Shown here piece by piece: positions 2,170-21,966 of a stretch of DNA of 36,756 nucleotides. Below the pieces are notes generated by a model. That model saw only the letters and a list, made by a program, of their open reading frames with translations. It made no database searches and had not been told where the DNA came from. The first letter of the stretch is position 1. Every line of letters starts with the position of its first letter. Origin of the DNA: Candidatus Galloscillospira stercoripullorum. GTDB lineage: Bacteria; Bacillota; Clostridia; Oscillospirales; Oscillospiraceae. The stretch is from NCBI GenBank assembly GCA_018715695.1, contig DVLB01000111.1, positions 1 to 36,756 of the forward strand. The letters run 5' to 3'. The translations under genes and the position numbers were made by a program.

Positions 2170-2430
2170 TGGCAACATGCGCGACCCTGCCGATCTGGCA
2201 GGACACGCATCCTTGTTTTGAACAAGGGAATCGGGTGAAAGTCCCGGACAAGGACCGCGGCAGAACCTCGGGCGAAAGCCTGGGCGGAGCGCGGACCCTT
2301 AGCTGTGATGGTGAAGGATGCCTCTTTTCTGCGAAAGCAGGTCACTGGCGGCTGGGCCGCTGGGAAGGCGGGCGGCATCCGCTGGCCCTATATTGGGCCT
2401 GAACACCTCAGTCAGAAGACCTACTGGGAG
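2170..2430 (+). ncRNA. Cobalamin riboswitch (upstream, first of two in series)
   Basis: Contains aagggaatcgggtgaaagtcccggac, gcgaaagcaggtcactggc...gctgggaaggcgggcggcatccgc and cagtcagaagacctac, i.e. the ordered conserved blocks of B12 riboswitches. Boundaries approximate. Confidence 0.75.
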
Positions 2431-2521
2431 CTCCATCCTCCTCGGGAGGGGGGGCCTGCTCTGAAAGATGCCAGGAGAAACGGCGCGCATGCGCCTGTTT
2501 CGTGTTTTCAGGAATGGAAGC

Positions 2522-2551: not shown

Positions 2552-2689
2552 GCGCGCTTTTTTCGGTGGGCGGCAAAGCGCCGGCATGAAGGCGGGAAAA
2601 AGACCATATGCTGCAAACAGCAGGAAGGCAACGGGGAGGGAAGGCCACTGACCAAAGCGGGAAAGCAGAGCGGAACAGACAAGTGAATC

Positions 2690-2900
2690 AGGCAGCTTTT
2701 GTGGCCCCGGCTCGGCCTTGACGACAGAGACGGGGATGGACAAGGGAATCGGGTGAGAATCCCGAACGGTAACCGCCGCTGTAAGCGCTGAGATACCGGA
2801 TCGTTGGCGAAAGCCAGTCACTGGGAAACTGGGAAGGCAGATCCGGCGTCGTGGGGCAGAGTGTCCCGCAGGCGCAAGTCAGAAGACCTACAAGAGAGGC
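2690..2900 (+). ncRNA. Cobalamin riboswitch (second, proximal to the operon)
   Basis: gacaagggaatcgggtgagaatcccgaacggtaaccgccgctgtaagcgc ... cgaaagccagtcactgggaaactgggaaggc ... gcgcaagtcagaagacctac: near-consensus B12-box architecture. Confidence 0.92.
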
Positions 2901-2956
2901 AGCGGCCGCGTGAGCGGCCAACCATGGGAAAACGGCTGTGGAGATCAATGGGATCT

Positions 2957-4672: not shown

Positions 4673-4702
4673 GGCCCGGAGCGGTCCATTGGGCTCCGGG
4701 CC
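4673..4702 (+). repeat. Intercistronic hairpin
   Basis: ggcccggag (4673-4681) / ctccgggcc (4694-4702); no T run. Confidence 0.5.
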
Positions 4703-4724
4703 ATCCCCTGACAGGAGAAAGAAG

Positions 4725-6376
4725 ATGAAAGGCTTAAAAAAACGGGCGCTGAGCCTGCTGCTTGCCCTGGGGGTGCAGCTTGCGCTCCTGGCGACGGCGG
4801 CGTCTGCCACGGCGGCGCTGCCCGACGCGCTGCACACCGCCGCCGCACACATGCTGGACACGGTGACCCAGCCGCAGGTGGGCTCCGTGGGAGGCGAGTG
4901 GGCGGTCATCGGTCTGGCCAGGAGCGGCGTTGCGGTGCCTCAGTCCTATTGGGACGAGTACTACGCGGGGGTGGAGGACTATGTGGAGGCGTGCGGCGGC
5001 ATTCTGCACGAGAAGAAGTATACGGAATATTCCCGCCTCATCATCGCGCTGACGGCCATCGGCGCGGACCCCACCGATGTGGCCGGGTACAATCTGCTCA
5101 CCGCCCTGGGGGACTATGAAAGGACCATCTGGCAGGGCCTCAACGGCCCCACCTGGGCGCTCATCGCTCTGGACTGCGGCGGATATGAGATCCCGGAAAA
5201 TCCCGAGGCCAAGACCCAGGCCACCCGGCAGATGTATGTAGACCGGATCCTGGCGTGTCAGCTCCCGGACGGGGGCTGGAGCCTGTACGGCGGCACGGAG
5301 CTGGAGGCCGCCGGCTATGATACCGCCGACCCGGACATCACCGGCATGGCCTTGCAGGCCCTTGCCCGGTATCAGGATCAGAGCGCCGTGGCCAAGGCAA
5401 CGGAGGAAGCCCTCTCCTGCATGAGCGGGAGGCAAAACTCCGATGGCGGCTTTGAGAGCGAGGGTGTGCCCAGCGCCGCGAGCACCGCGCAGATCCTGGT
5501 GGCGCTGTGCGAGCTGGGCATCTCCCTGGACGATTGGCGCTTTGTGAAAACGGCAACACGGTACTGGACGATCTCTTGCAGTTTCGCGATGGTAAAGGTG
5601 GATTCCTTCACACGAAGGAGGGCTCCGGCTCCAGCCAGATGGCCTCAGAGCAGGGGCTGTACGCCCTGGCGGCCGCCTGGAGAGCGGAGAGCGGGCAGAG
5701 CAGCCTTTACCGGATGGACGACGTGGCCATCCGGGTATCCGGCCAAGGGGCGGCGGGCTCCGGCCTGCCTGGAAAGGACCCGGCGGTGCGCTTGCCCGCC
5801 GTCTCCGCCCAGGGAGCCACCTTTGCGGACATCGCCGCCCATGAAAATAGGCAGGCCATCGAGGCCCTGGCGGAAAGAGGGATCATTACCGGCATGGGCG
5901 GCGGACTTTTCTGCCCGGACGAGACCATGACCAGAGCGCAGTTTGTCGCCATCGTCATCAAGGCTCTGGGCCTGACCCCGGAGCTCTGCGACGATTTCAG
6001 CGATGTGGCCGATACCGCCTGGTACGCCGGGTATGTGGGGACGGCCTCCCGCCTGGGTCTGATCAACGGCCGGGGCGGCGGGATCTTTGACCCGGGCGGG
6101 ACCATCACGCGACAGGAGGCCGCGGTCCTGGTGGCCCGGGCGGCCGCGCTCTGCGGGATGGATACCGAGCTGGACAGCGGCAGCGCCCGCGATACACTGG
6201 CCCAGTTTGGTGACTATGTAAAAACGGCCCAGTGGGCCCGGGAGGGGCTGGCGTTTTGCTATCAGGCGGGGATTCTGGATGATGGCGCGCTGGAGATCCG
6301 GGGCGGGGAGGCCGTCCGTCGCTGTGAGGTGGCGCAGATGATCTACGGCCTGCTCTGCGCGGCAGAGCTGCTGTGA
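4725..6376 (+). pseudogene. Secreted SLH-anchored protein with prenyltransferase/squalene-cyclase-like alpha/alpha-barrel domain (putative corrinoid-binding alpha domain); single -1 frame break at ~5547-5551
   Basis: Signal peptide MKGLKKRALSLLLALGVQLALLATAASA; repeats such as GGEWAVIGLARSG, YTEYSRLIIALTAIGADPTDVAGYNLL, LPDGGWSLYGG, DPDITGMALQALARYQ, NSDGGFESEG. Frame 3 up to DDWRFVK, then frame 2 from NGNTVLDDLLQF to the end, with SLH motifs. Closely similar to the intact minus-strand paralog 20089-21717. Confidence 0.8.
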
Positions 6377-6395: not shown

Positions 6396-7298
6396 GTGTG
6401 GTGGAAGAGACATAAGTGGAAGGTCCTCCTTCCCGTCATAGCCGTGGCCGTGCTGGCCGCCGCCTTCTGGTACGGCGGCGACGCCCCCGGCTTGCAGGGC
6501 TGGACCGTGCCGGAGGGCGGGGGAAGTGCGTCGGTCAGTCACAGCCAGATGCCGCAGCAGACTCCTGAGCCTGCGGAGAGCGGAAAACCGCAGGCGGCGG
6601 AGGAGAGCGCGCTCCCGACTCCCGAAGAAAGCCCGGGGACGCCGGCGGAGCCGTCCCCCAGCACCGAGACGGAACAGACGCAGGCGCCGGGGGATGAGCA
6701 GGCCGAGCAAAGCGGTCCGGAAGAGGAGGAAAGCGCCGGGACACAGAGCGCCGGCGGGGAAGAGACGCCGCCCCAGGCCGTGGAAGGGGACGGTGATGCT
6801 GAGAAGGACAAATACCTTACAGATACTGTGCCGGAAGGAAAACCGCTGCCGGTGGAGCCCCAGGACGCGGTGCTCTCCGACACGGCCTACACCTGCACCA
6901 TTTCCATCTCCTGCGCCTCCATCCTGGACCATATGGACTGGCTGGACGAGGAAAAGGCGGAGCTGGTGCCGGAGGACGGCTGGGTCCTTGCGCCGGTGGA
7001 GGTCACCTTCTACGAAGGGGAGAGCGTGTTCAACGTCCTTCAGCGCACCTGCAAGCAGCAGAAAATTCATCTGGAATTTGAAAACACACCCATGTATAAT
7101 TCTGCCTATATAGAGGGCATCCATAACCTGTATGAGTTTGACTGCGGCGAGCTGTCCGGCTGGATGTATGAGGTCAACGGCTGGTTTCCCAATTACGGCT
7201 GCTCCCGCTACCAGCTCCGGGACGGCGACGTGATCTGCTGGGTCTATACCTGCGAGCTGGGGGCGGACGTGGGCAGGGACGACGCCCTGGACGGCTGA
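6396..7298 (+). CDS. Membrane-tethered DUF4430 (transcobalamin beta-domain-like) protein
   Basis: N-terminal TM segment WKVLLPVIAVAVLAAAFWYGG, Pro/Glu/Ser-rich linker, then TCTISISCASILDHMDWL...PEDGWVLAPVEVTFYEGESVFNVLQRTCKQQKIHLEFENTPMYNSAYIEGIHNLYEFDCGELSGWMYEVNGWFPNYGCSRYQLRDGDVICWVYTCELG, the DUF4430 pattern. Confidence 0.85.
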   Translation: MWWKRHKWKVLLPVIAVAVLAAAFWYGGDAPGLQGWTVPEGGGSASVSHSQMPQQTPEPAESGKPQAAEESALPTPEESPGTPAEPSPSTETEQTQAPGDEQAEQSGPEEEESAGTQSAGGEETPPQAVEGDGDAEKDKYLTDTVPEGKPLPVEPQDAVLSDTAYTCTISISCASILDHMDWLDEEKAELVPEDGWVLAPVEVTFYEGESVFNVLQRTCKQQKIHLEFENTPMYNSAYIEGIHNLYEFDCGELSGWMYEVNGWFPNYGCSRYQLRDGDVICWVYTCELGADVGRDDALDG

Positions 7299-7330: not shown

Positions 7331-8248
7331 ATGCCGGGGAGAGATACCTTTTCAAGCTACCATCCCATGGTCAATTTCCTTTACTTTGCCCTGGTGCTGG
7401 TCTTTTCCATGTTTTTTCTGCACCCGGTCAGCCTGATTTTCTCTCTGGCGTGCGCCGCCTGCTACAACCGGTATCTCAATGGCCCCAAGGCCCTGCGGTT
7501 CCAGCTTTTGTATCTGCTGCCCATGGCGGTGCTGGCGGCCGTGATAAACCCGGCCTTCAATCACCAGGGCGTCACCATGCTTGCCTATCTCCCTTCGGGA
7601 AATCCGCTGACCCTGGAGAGCATCCTCTACGGAGCCGCCGCGGGGGCCATGCTGGCCACGGTGATCTTGTGGTTTTCCTGCTATACGGCGGTCATGACTT
7701 CGGACAAGTTCGTCTATCTCTTCGGCCGGGCCATCCCGTCGCTCTCCCTGGTGCTGTCCATGACGCTGCGCTTCGTGCCCCGGTTCAAGGCCCAGCTCCA
7801 CACGGTGGCGGAGGCCCAGCGCTGTGTGGGCCGGGACGTATCCGGCGGGAGCGTGCTGCGGCGGGTCCGCAATGCGGTCACCATCCTGTCCATTATGGTG
7901 ACCTGGGCGCTGGAAAATGCCATTGAGACGGCGGACAGCATGAAAAGCCGGGGCTACGGCCTGCCGGGGCGCACGGCCTTTTCCATCTACCGCTTTACAG
8001 AGCGGGACCGGCAGGCACTGGCGTGGCTTTGCTTCTGCGGGGTCTACGTCTGCGCGGGCTGGGCGACGGGGGGCTTTGCCTGGCGCTATTACCCCGCGGT
8101 CAAGGGCGCGCCCTGGACGCCGTTTACCGTCAGCTTCCAGCTGGTGTACCTGGCGCTGTGCCTGACGCCGGTGTTTTTGGACCTCCGGGAGGATAGGCGC
8201 TGGAAGCGCCGGGAGGCCGGGCAGGATAGGACCTGTTCCCAGGCGTGA
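7331..8248 (+). CDS. ECF transporter T component (EcfT family)
   Basis: Multi-TM protein with EcfT signature ...LRFVPRFKAQLHTVAEAQRCVG... and ...AIETADSMKSRGYGLPGRT.... Confidence 0.9.
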   Translation: MPGRDTFSSYHPMVNFLYFALVLVFSMFFLHPVSLIFSLACAACYNRYLNGPKALRFQLLYLLPMAVLAAVINPAFNHQGVTMLAYLPSGNPLTLESILYGAAAGAMLATVILWFSCYTAVMTSDKFVYLFGRAIPSLSLVLSMTLRFVPRFKAQLHTVAEAQRCVGRDVSGGSVLRRVRNAVTILSIMVTWALENAIETADSMKSRGYGLPGRTAFSIYRFTERDRQALAWLCFCGVYVCAGWATGGFAWRYYPAVKGAPWTPFTVSFQLVYLALCLTPVFLDLREDRRWKRREAGQDRTCSQA

Positions 8249-8280
8249 AGCGCATAGGAGCGGGCCAAGGAGGATTTTTT

Positions 8281-10935
8281 GTGGAACATACGCCGTTTTT
8301 GCATATAGACCACCTGACCTTCTTTTATCCCGAGCAGGAGGACGCAGCTCTGCGGGATGTGACGCTCACGGTGGAGCGGGGGGCCTTCTGGGTGCTGTGC
8401 GGGCCCTCGGGCTGCGGGAAGAGCACGCTGCTGCGCCACCTCAAGCCGGCCTTGGCCCCCCACGGGCGCAGGAGCGGCAGCGTGACGATGGAGGGCGTGG
8501 AGCTGAGCGCCTTGGAGCAGCGGGAGCAGAGCCGCCGCATGGGCTTCGTGGGGCAGAGTCCGGAGAACCAGATCGTCACCGACAAGGTATGGCATGAGCT
8601 GGCCTTCGGCCTGGAGAGCCTGGGCTGCGACACCCCCACCATCCGCCGCAGAGTGGCGGAGATGGCCTCCTTTTTCGGCATCGAGGGGTGGTTTTATAAA
8701 AATGTAGCTGATCTCTCCGGCGGGCAGAAGCAGCTTTTGAATCTGGCCTCGGTGATGGCCATGCAGCCTGATGTGCTGATTCTGGACGAGCCCACCTCCC
8801 AGCTGGACCCCATCGCCGCCTCGGAATTTCTCTCCACCCTGGGCCGGATCAACCGGGAGCTGGGCACCACGGTCATCCTCACCGAGCACCGGCTGGAGGA
8901 CGCTTTTCCCCTGGCCACCCAGGTGGCGGTGCTGGACGGGGGGCGGCTTCTGTGTACCGGCACGCCGGGGCAGGTGGGGGAGCGACTGCGGGAGGCAGGC
9001 CACGGCATGTTCCTGGCCATGCCTACGGCCATGCGGATCTGGGCGTCCGTCCGTGACGGCGGACCCTGTCCCGTCACGGTGCGAGAGGGCCGGGACTGGC
9101 TGAGTGCCTGGGCCTCCGGGCATCCCCTCCGGGCGCTGCCGCCGGAGCGGGTGGCAGCCCCCTCCGGCGAGACGGCCATCGCGGCGGAAGAGCTGTGGTT
9201 TCGATATGAGAAGGACGGGGAGGACGTGGTGCGCGGGCTCACCCTGTCCGTGGGAAAAGGGGAGCTTTTGACTCTGCTGGGCGGCAACGGCACGGGCAAG
9301 ACCACCTCGCTCAAGCTGCTGGCCGGGCTTCTGACGCCCCACCGGGGCCAGGTGCGCCGGGCGGGCCGTATCGGCGTGCTGCCCCAGAATCCCCAGACGC
9401 TGTTTGTGAAAAAGACCGTGCGGGAGGACCTTTTTGAGCTTCTCCGGGACGGCGGCGCGCCAGCTGCGGAGCGGGAGGCGCGGGTAGCCCATGTGACCGC
9501 GCTGTGTCGCCTGGAGGGGCTGCTGGACCGGCATCCCTACGACCTCTCCGGCGGGGAGCAGCAGCGCACCGCCCTGGCCAAGGTGCTGCTGCTGGACCCC
9601 GACATACTGCTGATGGACGAGCCCACCAAGGGCCTGGACGCGGAGTTCAAGGAGAGCTTCGCCCAGATCCTGCGGGTGCTTTTGAAGCGGGGGGTGGCCA
9701 TTGTCATGGTCAGCCATGACATTGAGTTCTGCGCGGCCCACGCCCACCGCTGCGCCCTGTTTTTCGACGGCGCCATCGTCACCGAGGCGGCGCCCAGGGC
9801 CTTCTTCTCCGGCAACAGCTTCTACACCACCTCGGCAAACCGCATGGCCCGGATGCTCTGCCCCCAGGCGGTGACGCCGGAGGACGTGATGGCGGTATGC
9901 GGCGGAGAACTGCCCGCGCCGCCGGAGCTGCCGGAGGATATTCCGCCCCTGCCCGCGCCCAGGCCGGAGAGCGCCGCGGCGAGGCCGGAAAAGCTGCCGC
10001 TGTGGCGCAAGCTGCTGGCGGCGGCGTCCGGCGTGGGGGCCGCCGTGCTGCTGGCGCAGGTGCTGAGTGTTACGGACCTCACCGCCCTCATCTCCCAGGA
10101 GGGGGTGCGGCCCCTGAGCGAGGGGCTGCCCGGCGTGTATGTGCTTTTGGTGGCGTGCCTGCTGGTCTTTGCCGCCTGTGTGACGCGGCGCTCCCACAGG
10201 CCGGACTATATGCAGCAGCAGCCCCGGGCAAAGCGAAAGCTCACCAGGCGGACCCTGGTGGCGGCGGTCCTCATCGTGTTGCTCATCCCACTCACGCTGT
10301 TTGTGGGGATCTACTATCTGGACGGCAGGAAGTATTACTTTATCGCCCTGCTCATCCTGCTGGAGACCATGCTGCCCTTCTTCCTGGTTTTTGAGGGCCG
10401 CAGGCCCCAGGCCAGGGAGCTCATTGTGATCGCGGTACTGTGCGCCCTGGCGGTGGCGGGGCGGGCGGTTTTCTTCATGCTGCCCCAGTTCAAGCCGGTG
10501 ATGGCGCTGACCATCGTGGCCGGTGTGGCCTTCGGCGGCGAGACCGGCTTTCTGGTGGGGGCCATGACCATGCTGGCCTCCAACGTACTCTACGCCCAGG
10601 GCCCCTGGACGCCCTGGCAGATGTTCGCCATGGGAATCATCGGCTTTCTCTCCGGAGTGCTCTTCCGAAAAGGATGGCTGCGCCGCACCCGGGGGGCGCT
10701 GGGGGTGTTCGGCGCCCTGTGCGCTATTTTGATCTATGGCGGCATCATGAACCCCGCCGCCGCGCTCTTGTGGGCGGGGGAGCTGAACTGGAAGGTGCTG
10801 GCGGCTTATTATGTCTCCGGCTTCCCCTTTGACTGCATCCAAGCCGCCGCCACATGGCTCTTTTTATGGGTGGGCGCGGAGCCCATGCTGGAGAAGCTGG
10901 ACCGGATCAAGGTGAAATACGGCCTGGTGGAGTGA
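8281..10935 (+). CDS. ECF transporter fusion protein: two ABC ATPase domains + C-terminal S-component-like membrane domain
   Basis: Two sets of Walker A (GPSGCGKST, GGNGTGKTT), ABC signature (LSGGQKQ, LSGGEQQ) and Walker B (VLILDEP, ILLMDEP), followed by a hydrophobic region with ECF-S-like ...PVMALTIVAGVAFGGETGFLVGAMTMLASNVLYAQGPWTPWQMFAMGIIGFLSGVLF.... GTG start at 8281 has a good AGGAGG; the ORF track start 8245 overlaps the ecfT stop. Confidence 0.9.
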   Translation: MEHTPFLHIDHLTFFYPEQEDAALRDVTLTVERGAFWVLCGPSGCGKSTLLRHLKPALAPHGRRSGSVTMEGVELSALEQREQSRRMGFVGQSPENQIVTDKVWHELAFGLESLGCDTPTIRRRVAEMASFFGIEGWFYKNVADLSGGQKQLLNLASVMAMQPDVLILDEPTSQLDPIAASEFLSTLGRINRELGTTVILTEHRLEDAFPLATQVAVLDGGRLLCTGTPGQVGERLREAGHGMFLAMPTAMRIWASVRDGGPCPVTVREGRDWLSAWASGHPLRALPPERVAAPSGETAIAAEELWFRYEKDGEDVVRGLTLSVGKGELLTLLGGNGTGKTTSLKLLAGLLTPHRGQVRRAGRIGVLPQNPQTLFVKKTVREDLFELLRDGGAPAAEREARVAHVTALCRLEGLLDRHPYDLSGGEQQRTALAKVLLLDPDILLMDEPTKGLDAEFKESFAQILRVLLKRGVAIVMVSHDIEFCAAHAHRCALFFDGAIVTEAAPRAFFSGNSFYTTSANRMARMLCPQAVTPEDVMAVCGGELPAPPELPEDIPPLPAPRPESAAARPEKLPLWRKLLAAASGVGAAVLLAQVLSVTDLTALISQEGVRPLSEGLPGVYVLLVACLLVFAACVTRRSHRPDYMQQQPRAKRKLTRRTLVAAVLIVLLIPLTLFVGIYYLDGRKYYFIALLILLETMLPFFLVFEGRRPQARELIVIAVLCALAVAGRAVFFMLPQFKPVMALTIVAGVAFGGETGFLVGAMTMLASNVLYAQGPWTPWQMFAMGIIGFLSGVLFRKGWLRRTRGALGVFGALCAILIYGGIMNPAAALLWAGELNWKVLAAYYVSGFPFDCIQAAATWLFLWVGAEPMLEKLDRIKVKYGLVE

Positions 10936-19232: not shown

Positions 19233-19264
19233 GGCAGAGCCTACACAGGCAGAGTGAAAAAGAA

Positions 19265-19302
19265 TGCCCGGCTCCCGCATCAAGCGGGAGCCGGGCACTT
19301 TT
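19265..19302. terminator. Terminator between convergent genes
   Basis: tgcccggctcccgc (19265-19278) / gcgggagccgggca (19284-19297), followed by cttttt; T-rich on the minus side too. Confidence 0.85.
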
Positions 19303-19344: not shown

Positions 19345-20076
19345 TCATCCCACGCCGGCGTAGCCGCCCACATCGTCTCCCAGATCGCAGGTGTAAAGGA
19401 AATCCACTGTATCCCCGCTCTCCAGCAGGTACTGGGAGCAGCCAAAGCCGGGGAACTGACCGTTGACCCGGTAGGTCCAGCCGGAAAGGGGACCGCAGTC
19501 GAACTCGTAGAGGTTTCCGATGCCCTCGATATAGGCGCTGTTGTAGAGCGGGGTGGAGGAGAACTCCAGGTGGATGCCCTCCTCACGGCAGACGCGCTGG
19601 AGAAGGGAGAAGGCGCTCTCGCCTTCCTCCCATTCCACCTCGGTGGGGGGGAGGACCCAGCCGTCAGCGGGGATGAGGTCGATTTTGTCTTCCTCCAGGT
19701 CGGCCAGGTTGTCCAGCACCGTGGCGCAGGAGATGGAGAGGGTGCAGGTGAGGGCGTCGGGCTCCTCCTCCGCTGAGGGGGTGGGCTGCGCTGCAGGCGG
19801 CAACGAGGGGGAGGGTGTAGGCGCGGCCGTGGGAGTGGGGGAGGGCGCTTCACCGCTCTCCTCCGGTGTGGGCGTGACAGCGGGAGAGGGGGTGAGAGCG
19901 GGAGAAGAGGCGGGAGCTTCGGAAGGCTCCGGCCGCTGGGTCAGCGCCGCGGTGGGCGTGGCGGAAGGGGCGGGCGGCGCGGTGGGGCCGCTGTCCCCCA
20001 GGAAGAAGGCGGCAGCCAGCACCGCCGCCGCGGCGGCCAATACGGCCAGCCGGAGCCATAGCTTTTTTCGGTCCAT
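19345..20076 (-). CDS. Membrane-tethered DUF4430 protein (paralog of 6396-7298)
   Basis: N-terminal TM, long Pro/Thr/Ser-rich linker, then LTCTLSISCATVLDNLADLEEDKIDLIPADGWVLPPTEVEWEEGESAFSLLQRVCREEGIHLEFSSTPLYNSAYIEGIGNLYEFDCGPLSGWTYRVNGQFPGFGCSQYLLESGDTVDFLYTCDLGDDVG. Confidence 0.85.
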   Translation of the reverse strand: MDRKKLWLRLAVLAAAAAVLAAAFFLGDSGPTAPPAPSATPTAALTQRPEPSEAPASSPALTPSPAVTPTPEESGEAPSPTPTAAPTPSPSLPPAAQPTPSAEEEPDALTCTLSISCATVLDNLADLEEDKIDLIPADGWVLPPTEVEWEEGESAFSLLQRVCREEGIHLEFSSTPLYNSAYIEGIGNLYEFDCGPLSGWTYRVNGQFPGFGCSQYLLESGDTVDFLYTCDLGDDVGGYAGVG

Positions 20077-20088
20077 GGCGCCTCCCCG

Positions 20089-21717
20089 TCAGATGAGCTG
20101 GGCGCGGAGCAGCAGCGTGTAGACCATCTGGGCTACCTGGCTGCGCAGAGCGTTTTCCCGGGCCGACGACTGGACGAGATCGGCCTCCACGATCCCCTCA
20201 CGCAGGCAGAAGGCCGTCCCGGTCCTGGCCCAGGAGGAGAGGTCCGCACCGGCGGGGAGGAGCGCGGCGGTCTCCTCTTCGGTGAGGGCGGTGTCCAGTC
20301 CGCACAGCACCGCGGCCCGGGAGAGCAGGGTGGCCGCCTCCTGGATGGAGATGGTGCCCTTGGGATCAAAGGTGGTCTCGCTTCTGCCGTTGATGAGACC
20401 GTAGCCGTAGGCGGTGCCCACATAGGGGGCGTACCAGGCGGAGGGGGATACGTCGGCAAAGACGTCGCTCTCCCGGGGAATGAGCCCCAGCGCCCCCACC
20501 ACGATGGCGGCGAATTCCGCCCGGGTCATGGTGTCGTCGGGCGCGAAGAGACCGCCGCCCTTGCCGCTGATCACGCCACGCGCGGCCAGAGCCTCCACCG
20601 CCGTGCGGCAGTCCTGGCCGGCAATGTCAGTGAATGTAATATCAGGGTTTGTAACGGGAAGTACCTTTACATCGGGGTGGCGGCCGCTCAGGCCGCCGGA
20701 GACAGCGGCGGGCACGGTGTAGGGCGTGTCGTTCATGGAGAAGAAGGCGCTTTCACCCTTGGCCGAGCGGAGGGCGGCCCCCAGGGCACACACCCCCTGC
20801 TCGGTGGAGCGCAGGTCTCCGGTCTCGCTGCCGGCGGTGTAGCAGAAGCTGCCGTCGCTGAGCTGGAAGGAGAGCAGGGCGTCCAGGGGAGAGCAGCCGT
20901 TTTTCACAAAGCGGCTGTCGGTCATCTCCACGCCCAGGGCGCACAGGGCCATGACCACCTGGGCGATGGTAGGGGCGTTGGCGGTGCCCCGGTAGAGGAA
21001 GCTGCCGTCCTCCGCTTGGAGGCCGCTCAGGCAGTCAAGGCCCCGTTCCACAGCCTGGGCCACCGCTGGCTGATCGCGGTAATTTGCAAGGGCCAGCAGG
21101 GCGCCGGCGGTGAGGTCCACGTCGGCCTCGCCGTCCCCGCCCCGGTCGCCCAGGTTCCAGCCGCCGCAGTCAAGCTGCCGGGAGAGGATCTCGTCCACAT
21201 AGAGCTGCCGGGTGGCCTGGACCGGGGCGGAGGGGTTCACGGGCATCTCGTAGCTTCCGCTGTCCAGGGCGAGGAGGGCCCAGACCGGGCCGTTGAGACC
21301 CTGCCAGACCACCTGCTCAAAGTCGCCCAGAGGGGCGAGCAGGTCGTAGCCCGCCACGTCGGTGGGGTCGGCGCCGATGGCGGCGAGAGCCAGGACGGTG
21401 CGGCTGTACTCGGTGTAAAGCCGCTTGTCCAGCACGCCCTCCAGCAGGGTCACCTGCTCGGAGAGTCGGGTGTAGTAGTACTCCAGATAGGACTGAGGCA
21501 CCGCCAGGGTGCTCCGGGTCAGAGCCAGCACGGTCCACTCGCCGCCCAGGGTGCCGGGCTGGGGGAGGTTGACCGCGGCGCGCAGGATGGAGCAGCCCTG
21601 CTCCACAGCCTGTTCCAGACTGTCGGAGGGCTGGGCGGCCCGGACCGGGGCGGCCAGGGACAGGACCAGGGCGAGAGCCAGCGAGAGCGCGGCGAGGCTG
21701 TGTTTGAATCGGTTCAT
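20089..21717 (-). CDS. Secreted SLH-anchored prenyltransferase/squalene-cyclase-like alpha/alpha-barrel protein (intact paralog of 4725-6376)
   Basis: 542 aa; signal peptide MNRFKHSLAALSLALALVLSLAAPVRA; GGEWTVLALTRSTLAVPQSYLEYYY, YTEYSRTVLALAAIGADPTDVAGYDLLAPLGDFEQVVWQGLNGPVWALLALD, LDCGGWNLG, then SLH motifs FTDIAGQDCRTAVEALAARGVISGKGGGLFAPDDTMTRAEFAAIVVGALGL. Confidence 0.88.
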   Translation of the reverse strand: MNRFKHSLAALSLALALVLSLAAPVRAAQPSDSLEQAVEQGCSILRAAVNLPQPGTLGGEWTVLALTRSTLAVPQSYLEYYYTRLSEQVTLLEGVLDKRLYTEYSRTVLALAAIGADPTDVAGYDLLAPLGDFEQVVWQGLNGPVWALLALDSGSYEMPVNPSAPVQATRQLYVDEILSRQLDCGGWNLGDRGGDGEADVDLTAGALLALANYRDQPAVAQAVERGLDCLSGLQAEDGSFLYRGTANAPTIAQVVMALCALGVEMTDSRFVKNGCSPLDALLSFQLSDGSFCYTAGSETGDLRSTEQGVCALGAALRSAKGESAFFSMNDTPYTVPAAVSGGLSGRHPDVKVLPVTNPDITFTDIAGQDCRTAVEALAARGVISGKGGGLFAPDDTMTRAEFAAIVVGALGLIPRESDVFADVSPSAWYAPYVGTAYGYGLINGRSETTFDPKGTISIQEAATLLSRAAVLCGLDTALTEEETAALLPAGADLSSWARTGTAFCLREGIVEADLVQSSARENALRSQVAQMVYTLLLRAQLI

Positions 21718-21747
21718 GTGCTCCTCCTGTTCTTCCTGCCGGGACGG

Positions 21748-21777
21748 AAAACGCCCGCTGCGGAAGGCAGCGGGCGT
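21748..21777 (-). terminator. Terminator hairpin between riboswitch 3 and the minus-strand operon (candidate expression platform)
   Basis: acgcccgctgc (21751-21761) / gcagcgggcgt (21767-21777); minus strand continues TTTTCCGT (short U tract). Confidence 0.65.
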
Positions 21778-21811
21778 GCGGCAGACAGCTTCCGGTTCCG
21801 GCAGAAACTAG

Positions 21812-21918
21812 GGCGCTCCCGGGTTTCCTGACTTATCTCCCTGGCGGGAGCTTCACAGTGACCGACTCGCGGGGCCTTTCACCCCATTTCCCCTTCCGCA
21901 TGGCGCGGCGGGAGCGCC
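21812..21918 (-). ncRNA. Compact cobalamin riboswitch
   Basis: Minus strand: GGCGCTCCC...GGGGAAATGGGGTGAAAGGCCCCGCGAGTCGGTCACTGTGAAGCTCCCGCCAGGGAGATAAGTCAGGAAACCCGGGAGCGCC; P1 closes with ggcgctccc/gggagcgcc. Confidence 0.85.
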
Positions 21919-21937
21919 TATATGGTTTTGTGGGAAT

Positions 21938-21966
21938 AGCTTATCACGTTCCCGCATGAAATACAA
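21938..21966 (-). promoter_or_regulatory. Candidate sigma-A promoter for riboswitch 3 operon
   Basis: Minus strand TTGTAT - 17 nt - TAAGCT, about 20 nt upstream of the riboswitch P1 stem. Confidence 0.35.

Follow-up and report, generated by a model that had tools for sequence, protein, structure and literature searches.

What might a pair of genes for putative corrinoid-binding surface proteins do when no importer is encoded beside it? The question is raised by the minus strand of contig DVLB01000111.1 (assembly GCA_018715695.1) from Candidatus Galloscillospira stercoripullorum, of which we analysed a stretch of 36,756 nucleotides (the window). From position 21918 down to 19263, this strand carries a complete transcription unit composed of a compact riboswitch, a terminator, a gene for an alpha/alpha-barrel protein with S-layer homology (SLH) repeats, a gene for a DUF4430 protein, and another terminator. 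Our reading is that this is probably a stand-alone corrinoid-capture cassette whose products act as a split transcobalamin, feed an importer in trans, and are repressed through the riboswitch. In more general terms, the unit looks real and functional, and it is well supported as a corrinoid-capture module. Both open reading frames (ORFs) lie exactly where the first-pass annotation of this DNA had placed them (20089-21717 and 19345-20076), with 12 bases between them and a ribosome-binding site ahead of them. The SLH repeats, the membrane helix of the DUF4430 protein, and the terminators are features beyond those in that annotation. That annotation had also described the pair as lacking transporter genes, and indeed the T subunit, ATPases, and S component of an energy-coupling factor (ECF) importer are absent from the unit and its neighbours.

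Predicted halves of a transcobalamin

The 243-residue DUF4430 protein consists of an N-terminal membrane helix (residues 3-26), a disordered linker rich in proline, serine, and threonine, and a domain at about residues 110-235 that matches DUF4430 (PF14478) with 51.5 bits against a cut-off of 23.8. AlphaFold2 modelled this domain mostly with confidence, and, when the model was compared with the PDB using Foldseek, the best match was the transcobalamin beta domain (5no0; TMt 0.74, E-value 8e-5), the first 16 matches were all transcobalamin or intrinsic factor, and haptocorrin appeared at rank 18. Together, the PF14478 and Foldseek matches identify a DUF4430/beta-grasp domain of the transcobalamin clade. 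The 542-residue partner begins with a putative signal peptide and contains SLH repeats above the Pfam cut-off (82.7 bits), while the match of its barrel to Prenyltrans/SQHop_cyclase falls below it. The AlphaFold2 model is confident (pLDDT 86.8), and its helices, together with the Foldseek matches, describe an alpha/alpha toroid. SLH structures rank first among these matches, followed by transcobalamin (2v3n, E-value 3.4e-4; 2bb6, 8e-4) in the company of terpene cyclases and prenyltransferases. Profile searches against PDB sequences gave nothing convincing for DUF4430 and matched only SLH and terpene cyclases for the barrel, so the link with transcobalamin rests on the predicted folds.

Animal transcobalamin, intrinsic factor, and haptocorrin also combine an alpha/alpha barrel with a beta-grasp domain, and 5no0 is the closest PDB fold of the bacterial beta domain. 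In the bacterial form, however, the two domains are on separate polypeptides with wall and membrane anchors, sequence identity is only about 12%, and delivery would be to an ECF transporter rather than to a receptor. A two-piece bacterial counterpart would bear on the proposed bacterial origin of animal B12 carriers.

The combination recurs among relatives. Protein searches found the barrel in 81 of 201 genomes of the family, with a recurring operon that often starts with a large SLH/DUF4430 protein and continues with the barrel-SLH protein, the transmembrane (TM) DUF4430 protein, CbiQ, and a fusion of EcfA, EcfA′, and the S component. Downstream DNA of 1.5 kb or more is available for 48 barrel-SLH genes; a TM-DUF4430 gene follows in 43 of these cases and CbiQ, within 6 kb, in 40, which bears out the earlier suggestion that the pair is a functional module. 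Its association with B12 riboswitches extends to relatives as well: of the 49 barrels in the scanned genomes, 25 are preceded on the same strand, at a distance of up to 10 kb, by an RF00174 match, where about 0.006 would be expected per barrel, and a model of the compact riboswitch (see below) adds at least five linked barrels (G039, G031:C27, G070:C5, G094, and G106; such handles denote our own genomes, contigs, and loci). Besides the genome studied here, G072, G160, and G127 carry the pair without an adjacent CbiQ and have the importer S component elsewhere. In G072 and G160, RF00174 is found upstream of both the pair and the importer locus; thus, pair and importer can be separately placed and separately switched.

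Some operons with the split pair also encode large, single-chain transcobalamin-like surface proteins in which barrel, DUF4430, and SLH are fused (L065, L068, L071, L110, L112, and others), and in G072, a B12-binding-domain protein (G072:C19:12594-12935, in a 235-codon frame) is encoded just downstream of the unlinked pair's DUF4430 gene, on the opposite strand. In the genome studied here, two matches to B12-binding domains were found and one to a tetrapyrrole methylase (286-codon frame), the latter probably the rRNA enzyme RsmI. Such a set fits an organism that uses corrinoids but does not build the ring, a reading qualified by the 74% completeness of the genome.

Burroughs et al. proposed in 2007 that bacterial transcobalamin-type proteins with SLBB and alpha/alpha toroid domains scavenge B12 or its precursors, and the portion of their paper considered here notes that these proteins are often encoded near CbiO/CbiQ genes in genomes without key B12 biosynthetic enzymes, and that paralogous extracellular SLBB proteins can occur in one operon (PMC1796856). 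The module in relatives shares with those systems its two domains (SLBB being DUF4430), its extracellular location, and its CbiO/CbiQ-type neighbours; the minus pair differs in being divided between two polypeptides, one anchored by SLH and the other by a membrane helix, in having its own compact riboswitch, and in standing apart from the importer. Riboswitch linkage was not found in that portion of the paper. Our literature search, which covered neither subscription papers nor preprints, returned no paper joining DUF4430 and riboswitches, nor any joining three or more of transcobalamin, S-layer homology, corrinoid uptake, and Gram-positive. New relative to prior work are the split layout with two anchors, the link to riboswitches, a capture cassette unlinked from the importer, the structural match of the beta domain in the PDB, and the compact riboswitch family.

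The compact riboswitch and its family

The most original element of the locus is the lineage of its compact riboswitch. The first-pass annotation had seen a different, shorter riboswitch form ahead of the minus pair and had made this depend on Infernal accepting the element at 21812-21918. RF00174 matches positions 21801-21930 with 30.6 bits (E-value 5e-6 in a local search and 4e-6 genome-wide), which is below the Rfam gathering score of 31.5. Taken literally, then, the Rfam cut-off rejects the element, but evidence from its family overrides this verdict and supports the description of a different, shorter form. It is one of only three RF00174 matches in the 1.88 Mb, 74% complete genome, the others being the two plus-strand elements of the window.

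A model of 134 positions (R1), built from the window's element and similar ones in G147, G094, and G057, gives the first of these, itself a member of the model, 130.7 bits. R1 has matches in 155 of 401 genomes of the family at an E-value of up to 0.01 and in only 8 of 387 other genomes of a class-wide sample at up to 1e-4; the two thresholds differ, and E-values well under both are common among the family matches. A lenient Rfam search recognised 4 of 20 compact loci as cobalamin riboswitches, none of them above the gathering score, so that searches at the Rfam cut-off overlook a sizeable share of the corrinoid regulon in this family. In an alignment of 37 distinct sequences (A5), the covariation score was 0.516 against 0.166 in shuffles, and none of 500 shuffles scored as high; since A5 was fitted to the model, the counts are biased towards it, and sliding the partners by 1-3 columns lowered the score to about 0.09. 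Changes on both sides occur in P1, P2, the short hairpin that replaces the P6 extension, and P13 (helix 8 of A5), in which 97.3% of cells are paired and six of the seven pairs change on both sides. Within this covarying structure, A5 and the cmscan alignment contain the core GGUGAAA, CACUGU, and a B12 box of the AGUCAG type.

The genes 3′ of compact homologues likewise point to the control of corrinoid genes: they include four cbiK, one tetrapyrrole methylase, cobT, cbiQ, and several genes for DUF4430, barrel, or SLH proteins. Under a strict scan, a terminator lies within 140 bases of 30 of 36 compact elements, compared with 29 of 600 random segments; a looser scan, which 53% of controls passed, was dropped. 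A conserved L5-L13 kissing pair was considered for all compact elements and rejected, as CCG/CGG fits the window's element and that of G147 but not that of G094. The element is not of class I, given that it has a short hairpin (helix 7 of A5) instead of the P8-P12 (P6) extension. Class IIb is defined by GGAA at J3/4 together with UCU at J6/3 (PMC11260477), and inspection of A5 showed GGAA at J3/4 in most sequences and no UCU at J6/3. Thus, the compact element shares with the class II/IIb ppe2 switch of Mycobacterium tuberculosis (PMC11260477) the core, GGAA at J3/4, the P13 hairpin, and the absence of P8-P12, but it has no UCU at J6/3 and its form is concentrated in one bacterial family. Judged from sequence, positions 21812-21918 hold a cobalamin-type riboswitch of a genuinely different, shorter form. 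Its layout of P13 and terminator, by analogy with the experimentally dissected metE switch of Priestia megaterium (PMC10653944), suggests that it would act in the OFF, or repressing, direction.

Other riboswitch forms and corrinoid genes came to light in the same searches. One form, with a GUCG-type 3′ box (AGUCGGGAUA for AGCCAGGAGACC; sites in Table 1), lies upstream of barrel or DUF4430 genes, and a further short form, AAGCCGGUGAGAAUCCGGCGCAGUCUUACCUCUACUGU...GCCAGG, occurs near other cobalamin riboswitches (G022:C1:185493-185628, G078:C1:1349937-1350070, and L127 of G057, 6702-6854). A predicted CbiK cobalt chelatase fused to SLH, apparently at the cell surface, is under a compact riboswitch in G029 (L153, 1895-3136), and the CbiK proteins of L141 and L144 have lipoprotein-like N-termini.

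Ancestry and proposed function

The first-pass annotation had also seen a copy of the pair on the plus strand, with the same domain order and similar sequence, and this parallel holds: NSAYIEGI(G/H)NLYEFDCG(P/E)LSGW is common to both DUF4430 proteins and YTEYSR...AIGADPTDVAGY to both barrels, with an identity of 52% over the aligned part of the barrels and 44% between the DUF4430 proteins. Duplication, which had been offered as one explanation, fares less well in its recent, local form. A maximum-likelihood tree built from 83 barrels makes the minus barrel, whose branch is longer than that of the plus copy, sister to the barrel of G045 (96/82), the only other genome of the same genus in the comparison set, and groups the plus barrel with its sister in G152 (98/94). 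A tree of the shorter DUF4430 domain is weakly resolved and compatible in outline with the barrel tree, and the importers of the plus operon and of G045 are not sisters. A recent local duplication therefore appears unlikely from the barrel tree, although an approximately unbiased (AU) test does not reject a clade of the minus and plus barrels (p 0.17), so that their placement on separate lineages is a preference rather than proof. In G045, the barrel gene is followed by a DUF4430 gene that is cut off soon after its start by the end of the contig, and a second contig opens within the linker region of a DUF4430 gene upstream of CbiQ and the importer; most simply, these contigs (C214 and C202) would be one operon cut by an assembly gap. 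If so, the genus's own pair would be the minus one, now separated from its importer, with the plus operon representing a second lineage.

The plus-strand cassette is the standard operon of relatives, and its importer lies 8-13 kb from the minus pair. As in ECF cobalamin transporters such as ECF-CbrT, it includes a CbiQ-type T subunit, two ATPases, and an S component, but here EcfA, EcfA′, and the S component form one fused chain, surface capture proteins are present, and the substrate is putatively a corrinoid. What the analysis shows directly is the gene structure and domains, the predicted fold of the beta half, covariation and a terminator at the riboswitch, a pair conserved alongside the ECF genes, and pairs unlinked from importers in other genomes. 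Beyond this, we infer that the minus-strand proteins have a corrinoid as their ligand, clamp it between them, and deliver it in trans under an OFF switch. When cellular corrinoid is low, polymerase would pass the compact riboswitch and both proteins would be made. The barrel protein would then be exported and tethered to a cell-wall polymer by its SLH repeats, and the DUF4430 protein would be held in the membrane by its N-terminal helix and extend outward on its flexible linker. Barrel and beta-grasp domain could close on one corrinoid and hand it over to a CbiQ/EcfA-A′-S importer; given that none adjoins the minus pair, it would most likely supply that of the plus operon (7331-10935) in trans. 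With plentiful corrinoid, the ligand-bound aptamer would stabilise P13, the terminator at 21748-21777 would form, and expression would stop. Extracellular corrinoid capture by Gram-positive gut bacteria is poorly known, and a two-piece transcobalamin working with an ECF importer would offer a testable mechanism for it.

Several observations weigh against this account. The Foldseek matches of the barrel are unspecific, with terpene cyclases and prenyltransferases scoring similarly to transcobalamin, so that nothing could be decided from the barrel by itself. The minus barrel deviates at 9 of the 80 columns conserved at 90%, where the median among barrels is one, and it may therefore bind poorly or bind something else. 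Moreover, the terminator/antiterminator logic is modelled, and, with the genome 74% complete, another importer could be absent from the assembly.

The deviations of the minus barrel also bear on the specialisation that the first-pass annotation had raised (different corrinoids or different affinity). In the form considered here, the minus pair would have diverged towards a different corrinoid or precursor (cobinamide, pseudo-B12, or alpha-ribazole) or a different affinity, complementing the plus pair. We regard this as possible but doubtful. In its favour, the minus pair has its own compact riboswitch, its barrel belongs to a separate lineage in the barrel tree, and histidine 293, kept in 52 of the 53 barrel-SLH proteins compared (G045 being the sole exception), is replaced by tyrosine in the minus barrel as in G045, with further changes at the neighbouring E249 and the QMA(T/S)EQ motif. 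On the other hand, the nine departures show no significant concentration at the rim where the ligand is presumed to bind (p 0.26), for which reason we make no claim about the pocket, and the sister copy in G045 appears to head an ordinary ECF operon. Nor is riboswitch form a good guide to corrinoid preference, since a survey of 38 riboswitches found none that answered to just one corrinoid and no strong relation between selectivity and the function of the target gene (PMC9600662). A broader proposal, and again a tentative one, is that the compact elements form a separate, class-II-like lineage of corrinoid riboswitches in this family, for the most part unannotated, which runs a distributed scavenging regulon that includes trans-acting split-transcobalamin pairs, and that the minus-barrel lineage, marked by the histidine-to-tyrosine change, has altered its ligand preference.

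The same apparent operon of G045, together with the longer branch, the more numerous departures at conserved columns than in the plus barrel, and the missing importer, could instead indicate that the minus pair is a decaying leftover of an ancestral ECF operon of the genus. We consider this unlikely, given that both ORFs are open, the riboswitch core, P13, both terminators, and the 12-base spacing are present, and all 36 DUF4430 columns conserved at 95% are intact. The frameshift in this window is in the plus barrel, and it is by this comparison that the minus pair deserves the earlier label of intact. It falls at a short A-run that is one base shorter than in the minus copy and may be an assembly error of the metagenome-assembled genome; a genuine frameshift would leave the minus barrel as the sole complete copy found in the genome. 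Finally, SLH and DUF4430 domains are found in many surface proteins, and the non-SLH matches of the barrel include terpene cyclases, so one could imagine that the two proteins bind something other than a corrinoid, such as a cell-wall sugar or an adhesion target, with B12 control serving another purpose. The strong family-wide linkage to B12 riboswitches and CbiQ/ECF genes, together with the specificity with which the beta domain matches transcobalamin, makes this very improbable, and we retain corrinoid capture as the preferred function.

Features of the window and its surroundings

Table 1. Coordinates of the minus-strand unit, the plus-strand operon, and a related riboswitch form
Feature	Position	Strand	Basis or remark
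Compact corrinoid riboswitch (aptamer and P13 hairpin)	21785-21918	-	RF00174 match 21801-21930; model R1
P13 stem-loop GUUUC-UGCCGGAACC-GGAAGC, expression platform	21788-21808	-	helix 8 of alignment A5
Intrinsic terminator, 11-bp stem and T-run, between riboswitch and start codon	21748-21777	-	sequence, terminator scan
Secreted alpha/alpha-barrel and SLH protein, 542 aa	20089-21717	-	ORF, Pfam, AlphaFold2, Foldseek
Barrel part; SLH repeats	~20683-21639; 20110-20637	-	within 20089-21717
Membrane-anchored DUF4430 (transcobalamin beta-domain-like) protein, 243 aa	19345-20076	-	PF14478, AlphaFold2, Foldseek
Closing terminator, 16-bp stem and T-run	19263-19299	-	terminator scan; + strand also matches
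Riboswitch 1, long form, ahead of plus operon	2182-2442	+	RF00174, 46.0 bits
Riboswitch 2, long form, ahead of plus operon	2684-2909	+	RF00174, 66.3 bits
Barrel-SLH gene, split by frameshift near 5547-5550	4689-6376	+	ORFs, Pfam
TM-DUF4430 gene	6396-7298	+	PF14478, 66.9 bits
CbiQ-type ECF transmembrane subunit, proposed trans partner	7331-8248	+	PF02361, 27.9 bits
EcfA-EcfA′-S-component fusion	8245-10935	+	sole match to this S component found in genome
GUCG-box riboswitch form, sites in relatives	L060 2017-2146 (G045); G078:C1:1349411-1349547; G160:C1:2082589-2082733		

The genes around the minus-strand unit are unrelated to it, with DUF4340 and ABC-2 genes on one side and genes for a DUF6056 protein and glutamine synthetase on the other. 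On the plus strand, the first of the two tandem long riboswitches (2182-2909) is followed by a terminator-like hairpin, and the second lies ahead of a FIVAR/SLH gene that is apparently broken into several ORFs. A third DUF4430 match of the genome (G000:C113:1417-1590, L116) is found in a 418-codon open frame on a contig on which no barrel was found.

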